NCBI GenBank assembly: GCA_030589945.1
Contig: JAUUZN010000002.1
Span: 1-60,166, forward strand
Length of the DNA: 60,166 bases
Direction: 5' to 3'
From: Gammaproteobacteria bacterium
GTDB taxonomy: Bacteria; Pseudomonadota; Gammaproteobacteria; Enterobacterales; GCA-2746155
Shown: one piece after another, positions 6,643 through 57,704 of the stretch
How positions within the stretch are numbered: the stretch's first letter is position 1
How the letters are laid out: every line of letters starts with the position of its first letter
Notes under the pieces: model-generated
What the model saw: the letters and a program-made list of their open reading frames with translations, nothing else
Told to the model about the DNA's origin: nothing
Database searches by the model: none
Position numbers and translations under genes: made by a program

Positions 6643-8055
6643 ATGGATACCAATCAATATAATTATAAAGTTGTCAAACAGTTTGCATTTATGACCGTAA
6701 TTTGGGGCATAGTGGGCATGCTGGTTGGCGTAATCATAGCTACTCAGTTAATTTGGCCAGATTTCTTGAGAGATATTCCCTGGCTAAGTTATGGTCGATT
6801 GAGACCTTTACATACCAATGCAGTAATTTTTGCATTTGGCGGCAGTGGATTGTTTGCAACTGCTTACTATGTTGTGCAACGAACCTGCCATGTACAATTA
6901 TTCATGCCTCGTCTAGCGGCCTTTACCTTCTGGGGATGGCAATTGGTAATTGTTCTTGCAGCAATTACACTGCCTCTTGGTTTGACCACTTCTAAAGAAT
7001 ATGCAGAACTTGAATGGCCAATTGATATCTTAATTACGGTCGTTTGGGTCTCCTTTGCAATTGTTTATTTTGGCACCATTGTAAAACGTAAGACATCGCA
7101 TATTTATGTAGCCAATTGGTTTTATGGTGCATTCATCTTAACCATTGCAGTTTTACATTTGGTCAATAGCGCTGCAGTTCCCGTAACATTCTTTAAATCT
7201 TACTCAGCATACGCTGGCGCCATTGATGCGATGGTGCAGTGGTGGTACGGACATAATGCAGTTGGATTCTTCCTAACGGCTGGTTTCCTTGGCATGATGT
7301 ATTATTTTGTCCCTGTACAGTCTGGACAACCCGTTTACTCATACCGTCTTTCAGTAGTTCACTTTTGGGCATTGATTGCAATTTATATGTGGGCAGGTCC
7401 TCATCACCTTCATTACACTTCACTACCGGATTGGGCCCAATCCATTGGTATGGTGTTTTCTTTGATTTTGTTAGCTCCATCTTGGGGTGGCATGATCAAT
7501 GGTATGATGACCATGTCGGGTGCTTGGCATAAGCTTCGCCACGATCCCATATTACAATTTATGATTGTATCCTTATCGTTTTACGGTATGTCTACTTTTG
7601 AAGGTCCTATGATGGCCATCAAAACCGTCAATGCATTATCTCATTATACAGACTGGACCATTGGTCACGTTCATTCAGGCGCATTAGGCTGGGTGGCGAT
7701 GGTGACCATCGGTACACTTTATTCTCTATTTCCTCGACTCTATGGAAAGACAGAAATGTTCAGCGTGCCATTAATCCGAGTGCATTTTTGGTTAGCAACT
7801 GTCGGTGTGGTTCTTTATATCACCGCCATGTGGATTGCCGGAGTGATGCAAGGGCTGATGTGGCGTGCGGTGAATGATGATGGAACTTTAACCTATAGTT
7901 TCGTTGAGTCATTGGAAGCGACAATGCCTTATTATGGTGTTCGTTTGCTCGGAGGAACTATCTTCCTAATTGGTATGTTTTTTATGCTCTACAACGTTAT
8001 TAAGACGATTCAGGGTCCCGATACCGCTGATCGTACAATACCTGCACCTGGTTAA
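6643..8055 (+). CDS. ccoN: cbb3-type cytochrome c oxidase subunit I
   Basis: [37 protein letters not shown] motifs. Confidence 0.97.
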
Positions 8056-28503: not shown

Positions 28504-29862
28504 TCAGGCTGTTTCTTTTCTTAAAAATGCTTTTATCATAACGATAATAAATAAAGTGCCACCAATAATAGAAATGGCTCCACCTGCGCCCATTAATCCC
28601 ATGCTAGCAATTTGTGGTAAGTGCTCCAACACATCTTCAGCACCAAATGTTTTACGCTGCACACCATAACCTCCAGACCAGACTAAGCCGATAATATGCA
28701 TTAGCTGTCCACCACCATAGATATAAGGTTGCCAACAGGCCATCTTTGACATCGGTCTAGAAAATCCTAGATATGGAAGAAGATGGTAAGCGAGTCCCAT
28801 GAATGCCAAGGTTACACCAACAATTGAACCATGATAATGGGCGGGCACTACCACATTCATTCCATCGATCATAAATCCGATAATTCCACCTGCCGCAAAT
28901 AATGTTATTGAGCTGAGTAGCGCTGCTTTAACGGGTAATTTATTAGCATGAAAAGTAGGAGACTTAATAATAGAAAACACCACAACAAATCCCAGAGGGA
29001 TGGAAGCTAATCCACCATACTTCATCAAATCAGTGAAGGCTGTTCTGTGCTCTAGTGAAACAACATCATATTGGAGATAAATGAAAGGAGTCACTACAAG
29101 AGGGAAGGCCGCTAACAAAAATAGCCATTGGGCAATTTTCGGCGAGAAGTCAATGCTGATTCCTGCAGCCTTGCCTATCCATAACCAGGCAACTAACAAT
29201 AACAATGTATGAGTATATTGCAGTATGTGACCGGAACCCCAAAATAAAACCTCGTAGAAAGCAGTACTTTCATAGGACGACGGTATCCCTACATAACTTG
29301 CAACCAACGAAATCAATGCCAATAGAGCAATCCATGCGCTGATATAGATGCCCGTATCTAACGCGTCAGAAGGACTAGGATTAGAAAAGTTAGGGGGGCT
29401 TGATGTTATTCTCAGTAAAATTTGTAATAGCATTCCCAAGCCAAAAATAGACAAGCCTGTGATGAATATTGGATGATCTAATATTGGGATATAATTATTC
29501 ATCAGCGGATTACCCACACCGATAAATGGAGCAATACTGATTGCTAGGGTTCCAGTTATCGCTAATCCAATGGCAATTTTATTGAGAACATTATTTTTAG
29601 AATCCGTGGTAAAACTCCACAAAACACCTGCAAAAGAAACAAACCATATCAATACTGAGAGATCCACATGAACAACCAAAGCCACATAAAAGAAGTTGCT
29701 AAAAGGAATCATTTCCTTTATCACGGGTGTACGTGATAGAACCAATACTATAGAAAATATTCCTGCCAAAACTAGTGAAACAACACTTAATTTTAACCAG
29801 GCTGATGCTATAGAATTTTCGGCATTGATTGATTTTGAAAATTGAAAATATTGACTTGTCAT
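28504..29862 (-). CDS. Heme-copper oxidase superfamily subunit I-like protein, CuB His-His pair apparently absent
   Basis: Multi-TM; helix II H (VALVVHVDLSVLIW), helix VI FWGSGHILQYTHT, helix X PAHYHGSIVGVTLAFMGL; the expected HH region reads FIYLQYDVVSLEHRTAF. Confidence 0.8.
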   Translation of the reverse strand: MTSQYFQFSKSINAENSIASAWLKLSVVSLVLAGIFSIVLVLSRTPVIKEMIPFSNFFYVALVVHVDLSVLIWFVSFAGVLWSFTTDSKNNVLNKIAIGLAITGTLAISIAPFIGVGNPLMNNYIPILDHPIFITGLSIFGLGMLLQILLRITSSPPNFSNPSPSDALDTGIYISAWIALLALISLVASYVGIPSSYESTAFYEVLFWGSGHILQYTHTLLLLVAWLWIGKAAGISIDFSPKIAQWLFLLAAFPLVVTPFIYLQYDVVSLEHRTAFTDLMKYGGLASIPLGFVVVFSIIKSPTFHANKLPVKAALLSSITLFAAGGIIGFMIDGMNVVVPAHYHGSIVGVTLAFMGLAYHLLPYLGFSRPMSKMACWQPYIYGGGQLMHIIGLVWSGGYGVQRKTFGAEDVLEHLPQIASMGLMGAGGAISIIGGTLFIIVMIKAFLRKETA

Positions 29863-29864
29863 TT

Positions 29865-30908
29865 TTATTGTTTAACTTCTCGGTTAATAAATATCATGAT
29901 AGAGAGCAATATCATTGCTCCGCCCTGATGCGCAACAGCAACAGGGACTGGCATGTTGAAAATTAATGTAGTGACACCCAGAGTTACTTGGATCACTAGC
30001 ATCGCTAAAAGGAAATGTGCTGCCTGACTGCTTTTTCTGGTAATCGCGAGACGTCTTAGTGCAAAACTAAAAACGGGGACTATCACCAGCAAAAGATAGG
30101 CTGTCATTCGATGGTTGAATTGGATCGTAGTTATGTTCTCAAACCAGTTTAACCAAAAGGGTACAAGGGTATACATGCCGTCAGGAATAAACTTTCCTTC
30201 CATCAGTGGAAACGTATTGTAGGCATAGCCGGCTTTAGTTCCAGCAACGAAGCCACCCGTGCTAATCATAAAAACAACCAAGCCTGTTAACGCCAAAGAG
30301 TAGCGATATAATGTTCGCCCTTGAGCAGTGTTAACAAGTTCACGGCCTTGTTGTAACAAACCAAAAGCAACCCATAAGATATAGCTAAATATCATCACAG
30401 CGGCAATTAAATGGGCCGTTAATCGATATTGACTAACCTGTGGGTCATTGACTAAACCGCTTTTAACCATGTACCAGCCGAGTACACCTTGTAGGCCGCC
30501 AAGGATAAACATGGTTATCATCTGCGGTAACATTTTGCGACGAATTCTACCGGCAAACCAGAAGAATAAGAATGGTATTAGAAATATCAATCCAATCAAT
30601 CGGCCCAATACGCGGTGAGAATATTCAAAATAAAAAATGCTTTTAAATTCATCCAAAGACATACCAATGTTTAACTTTTGATACTCTGGAAATTCTTGGT
30701 AATGTTTGAATGCTTGCATCCACTGGATTTCATTAAGCGGTGGTATTACACCCATAATGGGCTTCCAATCGACCATTGATAAACCGGAATGAGTGAGGCG
30801 GGTAGCTCCTCCTAAAATGATCATAAAAAAAATAACGGCAGCAACAATAAATAACCAAGTAGCCACCTGTTTGTCATGAGCGTTTTGTAATGATGTATCT
30901 ATACTCAT
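29865..30908 (-). CDS. ctaA: COX15/CtaA family heme A synthase, Cys-less (mitochondrial/alphaproteobacterial-like) type
   Basis: GGATRLTHSGLSMVDWKPIMGVIPPL...FYFEYSHRVLGRLIG. Confidence 0.9.
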   Translation of the reverse strand: MSIDTSLQNAHDKQVATWLFIVAAVIFFMIILGGATRLTHSGLSMVDWKPIMGVIPPLNEIQWMQAFKHYQEFPEYQKLNIGMSLDEFKSIFYFEYSHRVLGRLIGLIFLIPFLFFWFAGRIRRKMLPQMITMFILGGLQGVLGWYMVKSGLVNDPQVSQYRLTAHLIAAVMIFSYILWVAFGLLQQGRELVNTAQGRTLYRYSLALTGLVVFMISTGGFVAGTKAGYAYNTFPLMEGKFIPDGMYTLVPFWLNWFENITTIQFNHRMTAYLLLVIVPVFSFALRRLAITRKSSQAAHFLLAMLVIQVTLGVTTLIFNMPVPVAVAHQGGAMILLSIMIFINREVKQ

Positions 30909-31918
30909 GAAAATGATTTTCCCGACATTTTTCTATTAAGAGATGTTAAAAACATTAATAACACGGCAGTCATGAAGTTATGAGAGAGCACCAAAAACAA
31001 CGGCAGTTGAACTAACAATGTGCTGATCCCTAATAAGAACTGAGCGACGACTAAAGAAAGCACCAACAAGCAGTCCTTGGCTAACCGACGATCGGAACTC
31101 CATTCGGATCGCATGAGAAATGTCACTATCGATATGAAATAGGCGAGAACAATTACACCTAAAAAATGATGTATGATTTGAATGAGCTTCATCTTGTCTT
31201 CAAGTATAACTTTGTCTTGGTTGTCCAATTGCAAAAAACCGACTGGATTGAAAGCCTCAATAATGTTTACACTCTCTATTTGCTTGGCACCACAATTAAA
31301 TAAACTTTCACAGCTAGAACCTGCAAAGTTAACACTGGTCCATCCCCCCCAGAATATTTGCAACAAAATAATAAACATACCAATACGAACGAAGGGAACA
31401 AGAGGTGATTCCATATGGATTTCTTTCGTTCCTGATATTTTTAGATAAAGATGTAAAAGCAACGCGACCAATACTAAACCCCCAACAAAATTACCCATTA
31501 AGAGAATGGGTAATGGCTGATTAGGATGAAACGGGCCTATGGCTGCTAAAAATACGGTCACTGATAAAATTGCCGTAGGAATGCGGTTACCGAGTATGTT
31601 TCGATACTTTTCACTCATCGTTAATAAAAAGAGGAATAAAATGATTAAGCCTAATGTACTGGTCACTATTCGATGAGCAATTCTTTCCATTCGATAAGGA
31701 GTGGCACGGGCTTCACTGGTTAGTACATTAACACCTTGAACACTTTTGTTATTTTGATATTGACCATAGCAGGAGGGCCATGGCTCACAACCAACGCCAG
31801 ATTCAGCTAGACGCACATAGCTACTGAGAACCACCGTCATTAAGGCGAATCCCAAAGCGATTATTATTAATGCAGGTAACCATCGGCTGACCTTAGTATT
31901 TGGTGTTTCGATATTCAA
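30905..31918 (-). CDS. ctaA: COX15/CtaA family heme A synthase, Cys-pair type
   Basis: SSYVRLAESGVGCEPWPSCYG, RIAHRIVTSTLG, GSSCESLFNCG, IHHFLGVIV. Confidence 0.9.
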   Translation of the reverse strand: MNIETPNTKVSRWLPALIIIALGFALMTVVLSSYVRLAESGVGCEPWPSCYGQYQNNKSVQGVNVLTSEARATPYRMERIAHRIVTSTLGLIILFLFLLTMSEKYRNILGNRIPTAILSVTVFLAAIGPFHPNQPLPILLMGNFVGGLVLVALLLHLYLKISGTKEIHMESPLVPFVRIGMFIILLQIFWGGWTSVNFAGSSCESLFNCGAKQIESVNIIEAFNPVGFLQLDNQDKVILEDKMKLIQIIHHFLGVIVLAYFISIVTFLMRSEWSSDRRLAKDCLLVLSLVVAQFLLGISTLLVQLPLFLVLSHNFMTAVLLMFLTSLNRKMSGKSFS

Positions 31919-31938: not shown

Positions 31939-32472
31939 TTATTTAAGAAGTAGCATTACTTCATGCCGAATTTTAGATATATCATTTGCTTTGAAACCTT
32001 GGTGTGCATACCGTAACACACCCTGCTTATCAATAAGGTATGAAGCAGGTAATACGTTAATCTGGTACAGTTTGTAAATATCGAGTTCAGCAGTATGCAC
32101 CACTGGATAATCTACTGGATATTTTACAAGAAAATCTCTGCCATTATTTGGATCATTGTCTAAATTAATAGCAAGAATTTCAAATTCATCGTTGCCAAGT
32201 TCTTTGCGCATTTTATCCAACAATGGCATGGATGTTAAACAGGGTTTGCACCAAGAAGCCCAAAAATCCAGATAGATAACTTTGCCGCGGTAATTTGTCA
32301 GTCTATCGTCAATGTTACCATCAGACATAAGTGATTGAAAAATAATTTCCGGTGCCATTTCACCAATTTTTAAAACCGGTGGCATTTTGCCAACAGGAGT
32401 TTCAACATCGCTGCAACCACTGATAAAAACAAGCCATAATATTAAAAAACAATTCAATAAATACTGTCGCAT
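31939..32472 (-). CDS. TlpA/ResA-type thioredoxin-like lipoprotein
   Basis: Lipobox FISGCSD; DFWASWCKPCLTSMPLLDKM. Confidence 0.92.
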   Translation of the reverse strand: MRQYLLNCFLILWLVFISGCSDVETPVGKMPPVLKIGEMAPEIIFQSLMSDGNIDDRLTNYRGKVIYLDFWASWCKPCLTSMPLLDKMRKELGNDEFEILAINLDNDPNNGRDFLVKYPVDYPVVHTAELDIYKLYQINVLPASYLIDKQGVLRYAHQGFKANDISKIRHEVMLLLK

Positions 32473-32825: not shown

Positions 32826-34901
32826 CTAAAGCTTGTTACTTGTTCCCCCTAAAATGATGAATTTTTTGGTATCCGGATCAAAGTCAATCACCAGTACACT
32901 TCTGGAAGCCAGATTAATTTCTCTGGTTTCCTGATAATTATAATCATCTAAATCTCTGTGATCCTTTAATTTTACAGTAATTTTATGCATCCCTGCTTTA
33001 ACGGTAAAGCGATGATATAATTTGGCCCTGCCATCATTATTCAAACCCGCCGGCATGACCACCTTGTGGTAAGACTCCACATCATTTATAAGTAATTGAA
33101 ACTCAATTGAGGAGCGTTCTCTAGGACATACTTTGGCGAGCCTCATATTAGCCGGTAAACTAAGCATTTCTTCATCAGAGCGAAAGCGACACTCACCAAT
33201 GATTTGACCCGTATGACGCAAACTTAGTTTAATGGTTGCTTCACCTTCTTCAATCTGTGTATAGGTTGGTGAATTAGAAAAGTAGCCAATAAATAATATT
33301 ATTGCCGCATAAAACAATGCCTGCCCAAAATAATTCTTACCTTTCTTTTGGAATCTGATATTACCTATATCTTCTGACACTTTTCCAGAATCTAAAAGCT
33401 GAGAAAAATTATTGACCTCCGATTTCAATGCTGGCAATTCCATTGCTCCAGCCCAACGGACTCTAACCTTATTATAATCTTTTGCAGCTGCCGTCCTTAA
33501 ATGCGGACTGCGTTCTCCTTTAAATCGTTCATCAATCCATTGATTTCCTAATCGGTAATAACAGTTTTCTAAGCAACAGCCGGTGACCATTACACCATCG
33601 GCATGATCTTTTCTTATCAAGTAGTCGACAAAAGAGGGGGGCAAAAAACCTATACAGGGCAGGCTAATTGGGATGGTGTTTTTGATGCCAATTTGCTCTA
33701 TGTCAGCACCTTTTTCGCAACCAAAGATAATGAGCCTGTCTTTACCCTTCAGTTGTCCAAGCTTGTTGATAATTTCGTGTTTAAATACATCAATAGAATA
33801 ATCCGGTATGCCGATACCACTCTTCAATTCATCAATGGTTTGAAAGGGTGTAGCAGATGGACAAGAACCCGTGCAAATTCCACAGGCTGTACATTTGTCA
33901 GGATTTACCACAGCGATACGTGGACTTTTATTATTAGGATGGGGTTCAAAACTAATTGCGTCGAATGGACAGTCGAGATCACACCAGCCACAACCATTAC
34001 AGCGATCTGGATTGATAACGGCTGCAGGCACTTTTTTGTGCTTCATTATTAACGGCAGGAAGCTTAAAAACATTGATATCCCTACCAGTAATACCCAAAC
34101 TGTCCCAGGTCCCCAATAATCAATCAAGGGATAAACATTAAGATAAAACCAATCAATTGGAATATTAACCGGTGTCTGACTTAAATCGGCGCGACCAGAA
34201 CTGATTGCAGGCTTTATTAGTGATAGCACAATGAACGCTATAATGGTTCCAATGGCCAAGCCTCTCGGAGGATTAGTTTTCGCTTTTGAGACACGGCTAA
34301 TATGGATAAACATAGCCAGCATCATAAATAGCGGAATACCAAAATGAAGAAATACCATCAATGAGAAGAAACGATCACTCACCGTATCGTTGCTTAAAAA
34401 GTTTCGAGCCATTGGATCGCCAAAAGTAGGCAACCAATCAAGAAATTCCATTGTGGCAACTGCAACATATTGTGCAAATTGATCCCATACTAGCCAATAG
34501 CCACCAATTGCTGCAGCAAACATAAACCATAGCAGTGGGATGCCTGTGAACCATGAAAACCAACGGGTACCGGTGAAGCGTCCCAGTGAGAATTCGCGCA
34601 CTAGATGCAGCGTTACTGTTAATGCTAATGCATCTGAGCAATAGCGGTGTAAGCTTCTTACAACTCCACCTAAATACCATTGTTCATTGGTTAAATACTG
34701 AAGCGAGTCATAGGCACCATTAATGCTGGTTTCAAAAAATATAAACAGATAAAGGCCGGTAACGGTTAAAATCCAAAAGAAATAAAATGATAAGGCGCCC
34801 AGTTGATAGAAGGGATTCCAATCGTCATCAAAAAATAAATTGAATGCTGCTTCCACACGATCAAATAAATAATGTAGAGACTTTTGTAAAACAGATAGCA
34901 T
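32826..34901 (-). CDS. Fusion: cytochrome b (b6-like, bis-heme) + 2x[4Fe-4S] ferredoxin + MvhD/FrhD-type iron-sulfur domain + C-terminal beta domain
   Basis: Two H-x13-H pairs (LHRYCSDALALTVTLH; LHFGIPLFMMLAMFIH); CNGCGWCDLDCP, CTACGICTGSCP; FGCEKGAD...CIGFLPP...GCCLENCYYRLGN. Confidence 0.88.
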   Translation of the reverse strand: MLSVLQKSLHYLFDRVEAAFNLFFDDDWNPFYQLGALSFYFFWILTVTGLYLFIFFETSINGAYDSLQYLTNEQWYLGGVVRSLHRYCSDALALTVTLHLVREFSLGRFTGTRWFSWFTGIPLLWFMFAAAIGGYWLVWDQFAQYVAVATMEFLDWLPTFGDPMARNFLSNDTVSDRFFSLMVFLHFGIPLFMMLAMFIHISRVSKAKTNPPRGLAIGTIIAFIVLSLIKPAISSGRADLSQTPVNIPIDWFYLNVYPLIDYWGPGTVWVLLVGISMFLSFLPLIMKHKKVPAAVINPDRCNGCGWCDLDCPFDAISFEPHPNNKSPRIAVVNPDKCTACGICTGSCPSATPFQTIDELKSGIGIPDYSIDVFKHEIINKLGQLKGKDRLIIFGCEKGADIEQIGIKNTIPISLPCIGFLPPSFVDYLIRKDHADGVMVTGCCLENCYYRLGNQWIDERFKGERSPHLRTAAAKDYNKVRVRWAGAMELPALKSEVNNFSQLLDSGKVSEDIGNIRFQKKGKNYFGQALFYAAIILFIGYFSNSPTYTQIEEGEATIKLSLRHTGQIIGECRFRSDEEMLSLPANMRLAKVCPRERSSIEFQLLINDVESYHKVVMPAGLNNDGRAKLYHRFTVKAGMHKITVKLKDHRDLDDYNYQETREINLASRSVLVIDFDPDTKKFIILGGTSNKL

Positions 34902-34994: not shown

Positions 34995-35915
34995 TTAATC
35001 TGTTTTATCGGTTACAGCTGAATCATTATTCTCGTCGTTGTGATTACCTGTTTTACTTAATTTCCACTCACGAACAAAAATTCTAACGAAGAATATACCC
35101 ATAACCAAGGCAACAAATATTCCAATAAAAATGGAATAGTTAAAATAATACTTATCTTGGGAAGGATCGTAAACAGTGCAGAATAGTTTTATCTTTGTCG
35201 AAATGGCAGAGAATAAAGAAGCACTCTTATTTTCACCAAAGACTAGCTCTTTTAGTGGTTCGACAAAATTGGGTGTTTGAGGTCTCATCCCATAAACTTG
35301 ACGGTAAACAACAGAATCTTTATCGAGTATGCTGGCTTGTATCATGTGATCAAAACCTTGGGGTGAGGCTGAAAAAATAAATCCCAAATCTCGTGCTAAG
35401 GCACTCATTGTTGCCGCATCTGTTGAAAGGAAAAACCAGTTTTTTGAACCTGAACTGTGCGACTTTGCAAACTGAGCCATTGCCTTGGGAGTGTCTATGT
35501 GAGTATCAAAACCAATAGTAATGACATTAAAACTATCCTCACCTAACACCTGCGTAGCTTTTTCAACCACCCGATTTAAATTTTCTGTAATGGTTGGACA
35601 AATATGATGACAACTAGTGTATATCATACTCACTATCAATGGTTTTCCACTGAAGGTTTTAGTGGTTAATATTGCACCATCCGATGAAGTAAAACGATAA
35701 TGACCTACCGATTGACCGATAGCAGCCTGACTGATTGCCAGTGCTTGCTCATTGCTATATTGGCTAATCTCTTCAGTTGCGGTATTTTTGTTTTTAATAT
35801 GGTCCTTGGCGGCTACATCTGATGTAGCAGCATTTGCTGTAGCACCGAAAGCCAAAAGGAATAAACAACTAACGGTGAATCGACGATTAAATCCCCGTTG
35901 AAAAAAATTAAACAT
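34995..35915 (-). CDS. SCO1/SenC family copper chaperone with C-terminal TM
   Basis: KPLIVSMIYTSCHHICPTITENLNRV; GFDTHIDTP; GFDHMIQASILD. Confidence 0.92.
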   Translation of the reverse strand: MFNFFQRGFNRRFTVSCLFLLAFGATANAATSDVAAKDHIKNKNTATEEISQYSNEQALAISQAAIGQSVGHYRFTSSDGAILTTKTFSGKPLIVSMIYTSCHHICPTITENLNRVVEKATQVLGEDSFNVITIGFDTHIDTPKAMAQFAKSHSSGSKNWFFLSTDAATMSALARDLGFIFSASPQGFDHMIQASILDKDSVVYRQVYGMRPQTPNFVEPLKELVFGENKSASLFSAISTKIKLFCTVYDPSQDKYYFNYSIFIGIFVALVMGIFFVRIFVREWKLSKTGNHNDENNDSAVTDKTD

Positions 35916-35940: not shown

Positions 35941-35984
35941 CATTAGGCATTCCATTAGGCTCTCCATTAGGCTCTCCATTAGGT
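35941..35984. repeat. 12-bp tandem repeat at the ctaB 3' end / ctaB-SCO intergenic gap
   Basis: cattaggcattc cattaggctctc cattaggctctc cattaggt. Confidence 0.9.
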
Positions 35985-36842
35985 AAAGCCATTAAGTACT
36001 GAGCCGAGTAAAACCATTGTCAACTGTATTAATGATGCAAAAAAACAACTCATAGCACTCTTCTTATTGGTATTAATAACCAATTGTATACTTTTAATTA
36101 TAAAATAGGCGCCACCTGATAGGGCGCAGATTAGATAAACAACTCCCATTTCATAGAAAAAAGGCAAAATGGATACCGTCACCAGCATTAATGTGTGAAT
36201 GAGAATGACGATTGCCGCTTTTTCATCGCCTATCACTACTGGCAACATGGGCACCTTAGCAAGTGCATAATCTTTGTGAAGAGCAATGGCCAGACTCCAA
36301 AAATGTGGAGGTGTCCAAAGAAATAAAACCATGGCCAGTAATATTGAGGAACTATTTAAATCTGGTGATGCGGCAGCAGCTCCGGCCAATACTGCAAAAC
36401 TGCCAGATACACCGCCAATGATTATGTTGATACTGCTTCGACGTTTTAACCAGAGGGTATAAACGACTCCATAAAAGAAAGCGCCTAAGAATAAATAAAT
36501 CGCTACCATCGAATTAAAAACTATCCAGGCGGTAACCACTGAAGCGACAAGAATAGCTGCAATAATAAATAACCAAATAGAATGGTGTTTAATAACACCC
36601 GTTACAAAGGGTCTATTTTGCGTACGTGGCATTACCGAATCGAGATCTCTCTCAGCATATTGATTAAAAGCACCAGCGCTTGCTGAAGCCAAAACCACCA
36701 GCACCAACAACAGTGTGACTTCTGCTAGTGAAAGTTCTCTACCTGGTGTCACCGCATAGCCTGCAAGTGCAGTGACCGACATCATTATTCCGATCCTAAG
36801 TTTAAACAGATCGACCAATTGTCTGAGCATTAGAAACCTCAA
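35979..36842 (-). CDS. ctaB: Protoheme IX farnesyltransferase (heme O synthase)
   Basis: LVDLFKLRIGIMMSVTALAGY, NQYAERDLDSVMPRTQNRP, WTPPHFWSLAI. Confidence 0.95.
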   Translation of the reverse strand: MRFLMLRQLVDLFKLRIGIMMSVTALAGYAVTPGRELSLAEVTLLLVLVVLASASAGAFNQYAERDLDSVMPRTQNRPFVTGVIKHHSIWLFIIAAILVASVVTAWIVFNSMVAIYLFLGAFFYGVVYTLWLKRRSSINIIIGGVSGSFAVLAGAAAASPDLNSSSILLAMVLFLWTPPHFWSLAIALHKDYALAKVPMLPVVIGDEKAAIVILIHTLMLVTVSILPFFYEMGVVYLICALSGGAYFIIKSIQLVINTNKKSAMSCFFASLIQLTMVLLGSVLNGFT

Positions 36843-36930: not shown

Positions 36931-38637
36931 CTAACTGAGGCCCCATGTTTCTGACAGATACTTCCAGTTGATGAAGTAATAGGCGGCGAAAGTTGCTAAA
37001 AATACCATCGCTAAGAGGAATGTTCCCGGAATAGCGTTGTTGGTTGATTTATGTAGCGTAGCATACTGTTCATCAGTCACTGCCGGTACAATCATTTGCT
37101 GAGAGCACTTTTCATCATCAGCCAGTTTCTTACCAAAGAGTAATGAACCGACGATGAGTAAACAAAACATCGCTCCACCGATGACTGCCAACACTACACT
37201 TAAACCATTGAGTGACATCATCGCTAATGCTGATGATGCGAATTCATAAGGGAAGGTGGCATCTGTGAATGAAGTATCCCAATGTCTGCGTGGTACACCC
37301 ATGGTTCCAGCGCCCATCATGAACATTGAAACACCAACCATTCCCAGACTGAAGATATAAGGTTGCATGGAACAGAGTTTCTTAAAGATTAGTTCTCGGC
37401 GGAATATTATCGGTACCAGCCAGTAGGTAAGTCCCATAAATGTCAAGGTTGTACCCAATACAACGGTAGCGTGAAAGTGACCGGGAACATAGAGGGTGTT
37501 GTGGATTAGCAAGTTCAATTGCTCAGTACCCATCATGACTCCGGTAATACCACCGATGAATCCAAAACCAAATATGGATATCATGATTGAAGAGAAGGTT
37601 GGGTTGCCCCAAGGCGCTTTTCGTAACCACTCAAATAATCCATTATTAAAACCACGTGCTCTTTGTGCTGCTTCCATGGCACCTGGAACTGTCACACCAT
37701 GAACCATACTTGCCATAACCGCAAGATACATAGCGTAACTGGTATTGAACATCTTCCATTCAGCGCTAACGCCCGGATCAACCAATAAATGGTGAGCACT
37801 GGCGATTTGAAGAACAGCAATATAGAGTAAAAATGCAAAACGACTGACTTTTTCAGAGAGTGGTTTGGCACCAAACATAACGCTGGCAACCAAATACCAA
37901 ATGGTAATGTGCGTGGCGACGTTAATTTGTTGAGAAGAGTGTCCGAAAGCCCACCAGATTAAACGATAAACACCAGCATCAATATGGCTCACTAAGCCCA
38001 ATTGCCAGAAAAATGTGGGTAATAGGATTAACGCGCCAGATGCGATAGTAAAGACTGCGATAATACAGGCGGTTAATGCACCAAAGGTTACCAGTGGTAA
38101 CGATCCCTCATAGGTTTTCTCTTTCTTTGCGATAACTAATGTACCGAGAAAGACGAAGCAACCTAACAGGGCGCCTACGGCAAAGAGTATCAATCCCAAA
38201 TAAAAGGACCAATGAGCAGGCATCGGTGCATAGGAGGTCATCATTACAGCTGAATTAAGTTTCCACACTGCGTAGTTGTTCATTAAAGCACCAACGACCA
38301 TGAGGCCAAATCCAGCCCATGCTACTTTTGGGGCAGCCAACCGAACGCGAAGTACGGCGGAGGATGCAAAGTAGAGTACTGCAATTTCGAAAAAGATGAT
38401 CCAAAATATTAATACATTGATGCCATGACCCGTTAGAGCGGTATAAAAGTCTTGTGCTCCTAATAAATGCACTTCGGGCCAGCGTGTTAAACCAACACCT
38501 AGCCCCATAAATCCACCTACTAATAAGAAAACAACAGCAGCTACGGCGTTAGCTTTTATCAGCGACAATGCTGGTTTGTGTAGTAAAAGCCCAGTATCAG
38601 GGCATGTTCGGAAATTATTGTCTGACATTAGAGTCAC
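36931..38637 (-). CDS. Heme-copper oxidase superfamily subunit I, NO-reductase-like (Gln at the cross-linked Tyr position; B-family-derived NOR candidate)
   Basis: TGHGINVLIFW, WAFGHSSQQINVATH, SAHHLLVDPG, VPGHFHATVVLGTTLTFMGL. Confidence 0.85.
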   Translation of the reverse strand: MTLMSDNNFRTCPDTGLLLHKPALSLIKANAVAAVVFLLVGGFMGLGVGLTRWPEVHLLGAQDFYTALTGHGINVLIFWIIFFEIAVLYFASSAVLRVRLAAPKVAWAGFGLMVVGALMNNYAVWKLNSAVMMTSYAPMPAHWSFYLGLILFAVGALLGCFVFLGTLVIAKKEKTYEGSLPLVTFGALTACIIAVFTIASGALILLPTFFWQLGLVSHIDAGVYRLIWWAFGHSSQQINVATHITIWYLVASVMFGAKPLSEKVSRFAFLLYIAVLQIASAHHLLVDPGVSAEWKMFNTSYAMYLAVMASMVHGVTVPGAMEAAQRARGFNNGLFEWLRKAPWGNPTFSSIMISIFGFGFIGGITGVMMGTEQLNLLIHNTLYVPGHFHATVVLGTTLTFMGLTYWLVPIIFRRELIFKKLCSMQPYIFSLGMVGVSMFMMGAGTMGVPRRHWDTSFTDATFPYEFASSALAMMSLNGLSVVLAVIGGAMFCLLIVGSLLFGKKLADDEKCSQQMIVPAVTDEQYATLHKSTNNAIPGTFLLAMVFLATFAAYYFINWKYLSETWGLS

Positions 38638-38646
38638 CCTTTATAA

Positions 38647-39189
38647 TTATTTAACGACGTGGATCTTACCCACCATATTGTGATGACCTATACCGCAGAA
38701 TTCATTACAAATAATTGAAAATTCTCCGGATTTGTTAGGCGTAATGGTAAAGACATGTTCATATCCAGGTAACACTTGAATATTGATGTTTTCAGGTTGT
38801 AGAGAAAACCCATGATTCCAGTCCATAGAAGTCAAATGTAATCGATAACTTTGACCTTCTTTAAGTTCAAGAATTGGCCACCAGTCCCAGAGTCTCGCTA
38901 CAAGATAAACGTCGGAACCAATAGGTGGAGCAACCACTGGAAATTTACGGTCACCTTCTTCACGTATGGTAAATTCATCAACCATGGCTTGGGCTTTCTT
39001 TTGAAACAATTGAGGAGTGGTTCGATAGGTTTCAGCCGAGAGGTTTTGGTTTCCATACACGTGCCACAAAGGCATCATTAGTGTAAGAATTAAACCCCAG
39101 ACTATCACTATTCCAATCCAGATAAGTTCAACCCTTTCGATGGGCTCTTTCCACCATAGTTTTTGAGCCGGTGGTGATAGACATGTCAT
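38647..39189 (-). CDS. Cytochrome c oxidase/NO reductase subunit II with intact CuA site
   Basis: HGFSLQ...GEFSIICNEFCGIGHHNMVGKI; N-terminal TM. Confidence 0.9.
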   Translation of the reverse strand: MTCLSPPAQKLWWKEPIERVELIWIGIVIVWGLILTLMMPLWHVYGNQNLSAETYRTTPQLFQKKAQAMVDEFTIREEGDRKFPVVAPPIGSDVYLVARLWDWWPILELKEGQSYRLHLTSMDWNHGFSLQPENINIQVLPGYEHVFTITPNKSGEFSIICNEFCGIGHHNMVGKIHVVK

Positions 39190-39656: not shown

Positions 39657-40172
39657 TTAATCCTTTTTTTTCTCAGCCGCATTAAATAATATTTCACTGA
39701 TTGCATCACCCGAACCGTCGTAAAGTGCTCCCCAATGGAGATCTTTACCGCCACAGATATTAATAGTCTTAGTTCGCCAATTTTCTAGCAAAGTGTTTCG
39801 AGTAGGATCTGTACCTGCCCATTCCAATGCTGCAGTTTTATGTATTGCATTCACATAAACTATTTCTCTTCTGAGCATTCCAAAGGAAACGTACTGTCGA
39901 TAGTAATCATCCAGATTTACTGCTTTTCCTGGTGCAAATTTTTCTAGCGCTGCAGGAAGCAATGTCTCAATTTTTTCAACTAATTTAATATCTAACTCGT
40001 TATAACTGGTTCTAAAGGATGGTGTCATCCTTGAACATTGCTTAAACATTTTTAAAATTTGGGGAACCTCATTAAGAATACTGTAATTTGTTTCTTTCGT
40101 TTCCGCCGAGATCTGAAGGGAGAAAGAAAAAACAACACACCATAGATTTATTAAAAAAAGACTACGTTTCAA
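39657..40172 (-). CDS. Hypothetical secreted protein
   Basis: Signal peptide MKRSLFLINLWCVVFSFSLQISA; paired Cys. Confidence 0.5.
   Translation of the reverse strand: MKRSLFLINLWCVVFSFSLQISAETKETNYSILNEVPQILKMFKQCSRMTPSFRTSYNELDIKLVEKIETLLPAALEKFAPGKAVNLDDYYRQYVSFGMLRREIVYVNAIHKTAALEWAGTDPTRNTLLENWRTKTINICGGKDLHWGALYDGSGDAISEILFNAAEKKKD

Positions 40173-55544: not shown

Positions 55545-57704
<2,160 letters not shown>

Follow-up and report, generated by a model that had tools for sequence, protein, structure and literature searches.

The stretch of gammaproteobacterial DNA analysed here (60,166 nucleotides of contig JAUUZN010000002.1, referred to as the window) carries a gene for a homologue of heme-copper oxidase (HCO) subunit I that has lost the His-His pair of the CuB site and has kept the positions of the heme ligands. 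The same combination is found in a conserved, widespread clade of relatives, for which we tentatively propose a role in hemoprotein maturation. The positions of the gene, its ligand residues and its neighbours are collected in Table 1.

Table 1. Features of the CuB-less gene and its gene run in the window (nucleotide positions; residue counts refer to A2, the 73-row alignment of relatives)
Feature	Position	Strand	Remarks
CuB-less HCO subunit I homologue	28504-29862	-	452 aa, 12 predicted TM helices
R403-K404	28651-28656	-	R403 72/73, K404 73/73
H389, helix XI	28696-28698	-	73/73 in this subfamily; missing from second subfamily
H342-Y343-H344, helix X, high-spin and low-spin heme ligand positions	28831-28839	-	73/73
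H272, start of helix VIII	29047-29049	-	65/73; CuB ligand only under hhalign placement
I261-Y262, slot of CuB His-His pair	29077-29082	-	Y262 72/73
Y216, helix VI His+4, slot of cross-linked Tyr	29215-29217	-	Phe in 70/73
H212, helix VI (GHILQY), sole CuB His position retained	29227-29229	-	73/73
H65, helix II, low-spin heme ligand position	29668-29670	-	73/73
ctaA, COX15/CtaA heme A synthase family	29865-30908	-	2 bp upstream of the CuB-less gene
Second, divergent ctaA-like gene	30905-31918	-	4-bp overlap with first ctaA
tlpA, TlpA/ResA-like thioredoxin	31939-32472	-	Pfam/NCBIfam
Cytochrome b N-terminal + two [4Fe-4S] + FlpD/MvhD-like fusion	32826-34901	-	Pfam
sco, Sco1/SenC family copper chaperone	34995-35915	-	Pfam
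ctaB/cyoE, heme O synthase	35979-36842	-	TIGR01473 above cut-off
coxA, partner subunit I, B-type sNOR-like	36931-38637	-	HH kept, Gln at His+4 Tyr slot
coxB, partner subunit II, CuA-type motif	38647-39189	-	adjoins partner subunit I
171-aa ORF heading the run	39657-40172	-	no Pfam/NCBIfam match; 467 bp before coxB, membership uncertain

The oxidase scaffold and the slot of the CuB ligands

The open reading frame starts with ATG and contains no internal stop. Residues 18-429 of its product match Pfam COX1 (PF00115) at 49.9 bits, above the cut-off of 34.8, and COX1 is the one domain recognized, at E 0.001, in all 73 rows of the alignment of relatives (A2); no NCBIfam model was matched by the protein or by any of these rows. 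The host genome holds four COX1 matches: an A-type oxidase (contig 144), ccoN (6643-8055 in the window), the B-type partner gene of Table 1, and the gene under study. An AlphaFold2 model computed on A2 (pLDDT 87.3, pTM 0.90) has twelve long helices and the complete fold of an HCO subunit I, which together with the Pfam match bears out the original prediction that the gene belongs to this superfamily. The top Foldseek match of the model is the Thermus thermophilus ba3 oxidase (3s8g_A, E 6e-8, TMq 0.75), and VIA-align superimposes it on HCO subunits I of several types with Z scores of 28-30 over about 400-420 residues (about 28 for ba3; PDB 3s8g, 1ehk). Neither the Foldseek nor the VIA lists contain a fold closer than ordinary HCOs, and a PDB profile search returned one weak HCO match only, 7deg; that others are missing from these results is no evidence against them. 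The CuB His-His pair is present in ba3 and absent from the family described here.

A2 comprises the window protein and 72 of 80 fetched loci; the other eight (L062, L072, L075, L077, L078, L088, L101 and L106) are near-duplicates or truncated. At least 581 relatives exist, of which the 80 loci have the highest scores, and the sample is therefore biased towards close relatives. Residues invariant across the 73 rows include H65, H212, Q215, H342, Y343, H344, Q386, H389, and K404. The helix II His and the His residues of the GHILQY and HYH motifs named in the original prediction are among these, and the heme ligands, which it suggested might remain, are indeed conserved by position (65, 342 and 344). 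An earlier alignment of 20 sequences (the window protein and those of 19 other genomes) had the same heme-ligand positions common to all. Judged by sequence conservation, these positions would provide a bis-His low-spin heme (H65/H344) and a second heme (H342), and R403-K404 stands where HCOs have the Arg-Arg pair to which the heme propionates bind. The ba3 oxidase carries a cross-linked Tyr; the Tyr found at that slot in the window protein, Y216, is not a family feature, because nearly all relatives have Phe there. A further degenerate form is the relative L026, in which neither the helix II His nor the Arg-Lys pair is left, and the copy at L009 contains an in-frame stop.

At the slot where ccoN of the window reads GPHHLHY the protein reads FIYLQYDVVSLEHRTAF, with no HH. 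None of the 73 rows has HH there, a hydrophobic residue occupying position 261 and Tyr nearly always position 262, whereas all 31 of the B-type partners and all 13 of the A-type oxidases have the pair. The wider CuB-less clade likewise lacks it (0/33, against 21/21 reference rows with HH). The absence noted from the window alone is thus conserved among relatives and no sign of a decayed gene. Of the helix VI His and helix VII His-His that make up a CuB or FeB site, only H212 is kept.

An hhalign comparison of A2 with A3 dissents on the placement: it opens a gap and lays S-x-E271-H272 on the SAHH of the partner. One of the two His would then survive in 65/73 rows, and one at most in the window protein; an HH dipeptide lies near 272-273 in five rows. 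We favour the ungapped placement because the distance from the helix VI His to the slot is 50 residues in both proteins (H212 to 262 here, H233 to H283 in the partner), because MAFFT returned it in two alignments, and because helix VII ends at 264 in the predicted structure, with residue 272 at the start of helix VIII. On the model, the hhalign placement therefore appears less likely. Under either placement the window protein is without a His-His pair.

The gene run and the neighbours of relatives

The gene is the last of a minus-strand series that reads, from 40172 to 28504: the 171-aa ORF, coxB, coxA, ctaB, sco, the cytochrome b/FeS fusion, tlpA, ctaA, ctaA, and the CuB-less gene. That no subunit II adjoins it, as originally stated, is literally true; the run does contain a single subunit II gene, some 9 kb upstream, next to the complete partner subunit I. 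Neither this two-subunit partner oxidase nor the genes for heme O and heme A synthesis figured in the earlier reading. The second ctaA-like gene scores 124 bits, compared with 367 for its neighbour. The cytochrome b/FeS fusion has in addition a C-terminal segment, is conserved in the same runs elsewhere, and may be a reductase for cofactor assembly. Partner CoxA has Gln-Gln after the helix VI His where ba3 has Val-Tyr, and so has no active-site Tyr, a trait shared by 31/31 members of its family; loss of the active-site Tyr at His+4 is known from NO-reducing HCOs. Judged by the known features and gene order of sNOR, the partner is a putative sNOR proper. For the B-type sNOR of Nitrosomonas, roles as a NO reductase and as a high-affinity oxidase are both under discussion (PMC6967387).

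Two gaps interrupt the run, one of 353 bp in front of tlpA and one of 467 bp in front of coxB. Between coxA and ctaB lies the longest terminator-like stem of the region (36903-36876), with 12 pairs. From the stem and the 353-bp gap, the run may comprise more than one transcript, and tlpA-ctaA-ctaA and the CuB-less gene may form one of their own. A promoter scan of the region gave 32 promoter-like sites against 38.6 in shuffled sequence, no more than expected by chance. Elsewhere in the window, 55575-57704 encodes a c-type cytochrome plus cytochrome d1-like protein, NirS/NirN-type by eye, and a similar gene adjoins a relative of the CuB-less gene in L048 (7759-9924).

The neighbours of relatives were called by similarity to the proteins of the window and of L061, L041 and L147, with Pfam for selected ORFs; unlabelled neighbours exist. 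Among the best 80 of at least 581 loci the counts were: ctaA 46, sco 46, ctaB 45, cytochrome b/FeS 45, B-type coxA 39, and A-type ctaD 17. Half of these 80 exceed 19 kb in length; 39 of those 40 have at least one oxidase, cta or cytochrome b/FeS neighbour, and 35 have an oxidase set, while 11 of the 40 shorter loci are without any such gene. In the same 80, the gene immediately upstream is cytochrome b/FeS in 26, and the gene immediately downstream is a convergent ctaB in nine and ctaA in five. The B-type run seen in the window recurs at most loci, and at others the gene belongs to an aa3 cluster that includes surf1, ctaG and cox3. Carriers of relatives include Comamonas granuli, which can be cultured, and Thiothrix caldifontis. 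This link to two different oxidase types argues for a shared need of these systems rather than for a subunit of one enzyme.

Co-occurrence was scored in 229 genomes of the class: 15 have the CuB-less gene and an sNOR-like coxA, four the coxA alone, nine the CuB-less gene alone, and 201 neither (odds ratio 84, p 3.6e-14, shared ancestry being ignored). Ignoring ancestry likewise, CtaA occurs in 23/24 carriers and 123/205 others (p 2e-4). The 24 carriers are 27 matched genomes less one with a distant paralogue (G061) and two in which the match was the partner coxA (G167 and G228); G186 and G215 are counted on fragments only, and for G067 the count relies on a fragment together with a truncated gene. 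SURF1 is found in 16/24 carriers, no different from the rest (p 0.51), and the idea that the CuB-less protein replaces SURF1 was rejected. Nine of the 24 carriers are without an sNOR-like oxidase, and four of the 19 genomes with such an oxidase are without the CuB-less gene. An sNOR-like run on a Defluviimonas plasmid has ctaB, sco and cytochrome b and no CuB-less gene within 10 kb, so that the protein is not essential for an sNOR-like oxidase; searching plasmids with the window protein gave no match. On the Thermus thermophilus plasmid pHB5018b (L166), the sNOR-like subunit I adjoins Rrf2 and DUF542 genes, which suggests that the family of the partner enzyme is linked to nitric oxide.

A second CuB-less subfamily and the origin of the clade

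More distant CuB-less members emerged when 398 genomes of the phylum were searched with a profile; 13 places were fetched, yielding 12 scorable proteins. This second subfamily has HH at the slot in 0/12 and the heme positions in 12/12; Y262 is lost, and most members are without H272. Eight of the 12 carry a TPR tail, and in two more a separate TPR gene follows directly behind. The neighbours include a multiheme cytochrome, mostly with 11 CXXCH motifs (7/12), a ResB-like protein (8/12) and a CcsA-like protein (3/12). Seven loci (L145, L146, L147, L148, L153, L154 and L155) are Uet-like clusters with a TPR-bearing CuB-less HCO, the TPR being fused or in the next gene, and with a multiheme cytochrome and a ResB-like protein, joined in three by a CcsA-like one. 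The 11-heme and triheme cytochromes resemble the Uet set of Gallionella and Tenderiales as described in PMC10734462. Two members are more distant still: one adjoins an A-type oxidase run, the other an 11-heme cytochrome.

In a tree of 54 hand-picked rows (a quick search without bootstrap, in which the long-branch NorB, S2_L156 and C_L172 were kept), all 33 CuB-less sequences form one clade with SH-aLRT 100 and a stem of 1.87 changes per site. Within the B-type branch this clade is sister to the sNOR-like oxidases (support 98), so that the window protein stands beside the sNOR-like clade and outside it. The S2 and S3 rows had been cut down to the HMM match because their ORF starts ran upstream. 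Membership in cbb3 or NOR was rejected by the tree position. Profile comparison agrees, placing the family at E 9e-29 from the B-type partner family and 4e-7 from the A-type. Given the single clade and the agreeing profiles, the CuB site was most simply lost once, with diversification thereafter. The dN/dS ratio is 0.03-0.19 wherever dS is finite (the 30 closest of 75 pairs), and from these sequence comparisons we conclude that the CuB-less protein is under purifying selection.

A possible function in hemoprotein maturation and its alternatives

Our preferred reading, put forward tentatively, is that the protein is an oxidase-derived membrane heme protein that would have given up O2 and NO reduction and would serve the maturation of other hemoproteins, either by handling heme or by delivering electrons. 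That the CuB pair is lost while the heme-ligand and propionate positions are strictly kept points to a heme protein without O2 or NO reduction. The role in maturation is preferred because it is the shared denominator of the two settings: one has oxidase genes and genes for heme O/A synthesis, the other heme-attachment genes and TPR. Of the roles guessed earlier (NO/O2 binding, electron transfer, or assembly), gene context favours assembly or maturation. More speculative, and put forward with somewhat less confidence, is the wider proposal that the whole CuB-less branch abandoned O2 and NO reduction with the loss of CuB and became a dedicated membrane heme or electron donor, acting on heme O/A oxidases in one form and, TPR-fused and with ResB/CcsA, on the undecaheme cytochromes of extracellular electron uptake in the other.

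The protein would descend from subunit I of a B-type oxidase, the CuB site having disappeared a single time, in the common ancestor of the clade. The protein would bind two hemes, with H212 and Y262 lining the distal side of the second, or with H212 as its sixth ligand. Electrons or heme would be taken from the membrane pool and handed over during cofactor insertion, the recipients being the sNOR-like or aa3 oxidase for the subfamily of the window protein and a multiheme cytochrome c for the TPR-tailed one. CcmF, which has a heme b of its own and a proposed quinol:heme oxidoreductase role, offers an analogy and is no homologue.

Compared with the B-type HCO and sNOR systems (NorSY, coxBA-senC of ammonia oxidisers), the protein has the 12-helix fold, the same heme-ligand positions and the Gln at helix VI His+3, but lacks both helix VII CuB His and a subunit II of its own and is about 115 aa shorter. 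CcoN and NorB belong to the same superfamily and share the helix II, VI and X His; both keep HH and are distant in the tree. CtaA/Cox15, CtaB, SURF1, CtaG and Sco are genomic neighbours, and the proposed role is like theirs, but there is no sequence kinship. With the ResB/CcsA and CcmF/CcmI-NrfG routes of cytochrome c maturation the second subfamily shares its TPR and the ResB-like and CcsA-like genes beside it; the fold is different, and a functional parallel would be one of analogy.

The best surviving alternative, in our view unlikely, is an electron-transfer subunit: a di-heme b cytochrome that would pass electrons from quinol, perhaps via the cytochrome b/FeS protein, to the oxidase, to Sco and copper, or, where the second subfamily is concerned, to the undecaheme cytochrome that serves extracellular electron uptake. 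Two kept heme sites with catalysis apparently lost are what such a subunit would look like, and both the frequent cytochrome b/FeS gene directly upstream and the Uet-like cytochromes are consistent with it; it leaves the heme-synthesis and heme-attachment neighbours and the TPR tail without explanation, and fits poorly with the presence of the gene beside two unrelated oxidase types. Less probable again is a sensor or scavenger, in which a His/Tyr distal pocket (H212/Y262) would bind NO or O2 and protect or regulate the partner enzyme. The near-invariance of both residues at the emptied site would agree with this, as would the Rrf2 and DUF542 genes in Thermus and the missing active-site Tyr of the partner family, a likeness to NO-reducing HCOs. 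Against it, no fusion to a signalling domain or a regulator is seen in the subfamily of the window protein, Y262 is lost in the second subfamily, and ordinary aa3 clusters are linked as well. An enzyme with an unusual binuclear site, holding copper or another metal on H212 together with H272, Y262 or M280, is decidedly improbable: hhalign does lay E271-H272 on the HH pair, and M280, like H212, is present in 73/73 rows, but H272 opens helix VIII in the model, is missing in 8/73 and in most of the second subfamily, and the slot of the cross-linked Tyr holds Phe in 70/73. A decaying, functionless pseudo-oxidase, suggested by the lost catalytic residues, by L026 without H65 and by the in-frame stop at L009, is rejected as next to incredible in view of the low dN/dS, the absence of HH and the invariant heme positions in all 73 rows, the single CuB-less clade and the at least 581 relatives.

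In the open-licence PMC literature searched, no family of HCO subunit I homologues without CuB was found to be described; there are specialised studies of NO-reducing HCOs beyond that literature. Where genomes are annotated by PF00115, genes of this kind are scored as terminal oxidases. HCOs are known as enzymes, and the existence of a widespread, conserved clade that has the HCO fold and heme-ligand positions and is without CuB means that the oxidase scaffold has been reused. If the protein is a maturation factor, as we prefer to read it, it would add a missing player to the assembly of oxidases and multiheme cytochromes, and would offer a natural CuB-free control for oxidase chemistry. Should the reading as donor or maturase prove true, the family would be one of pseudo-oxidase maturases, a new role for the oxidase fold.
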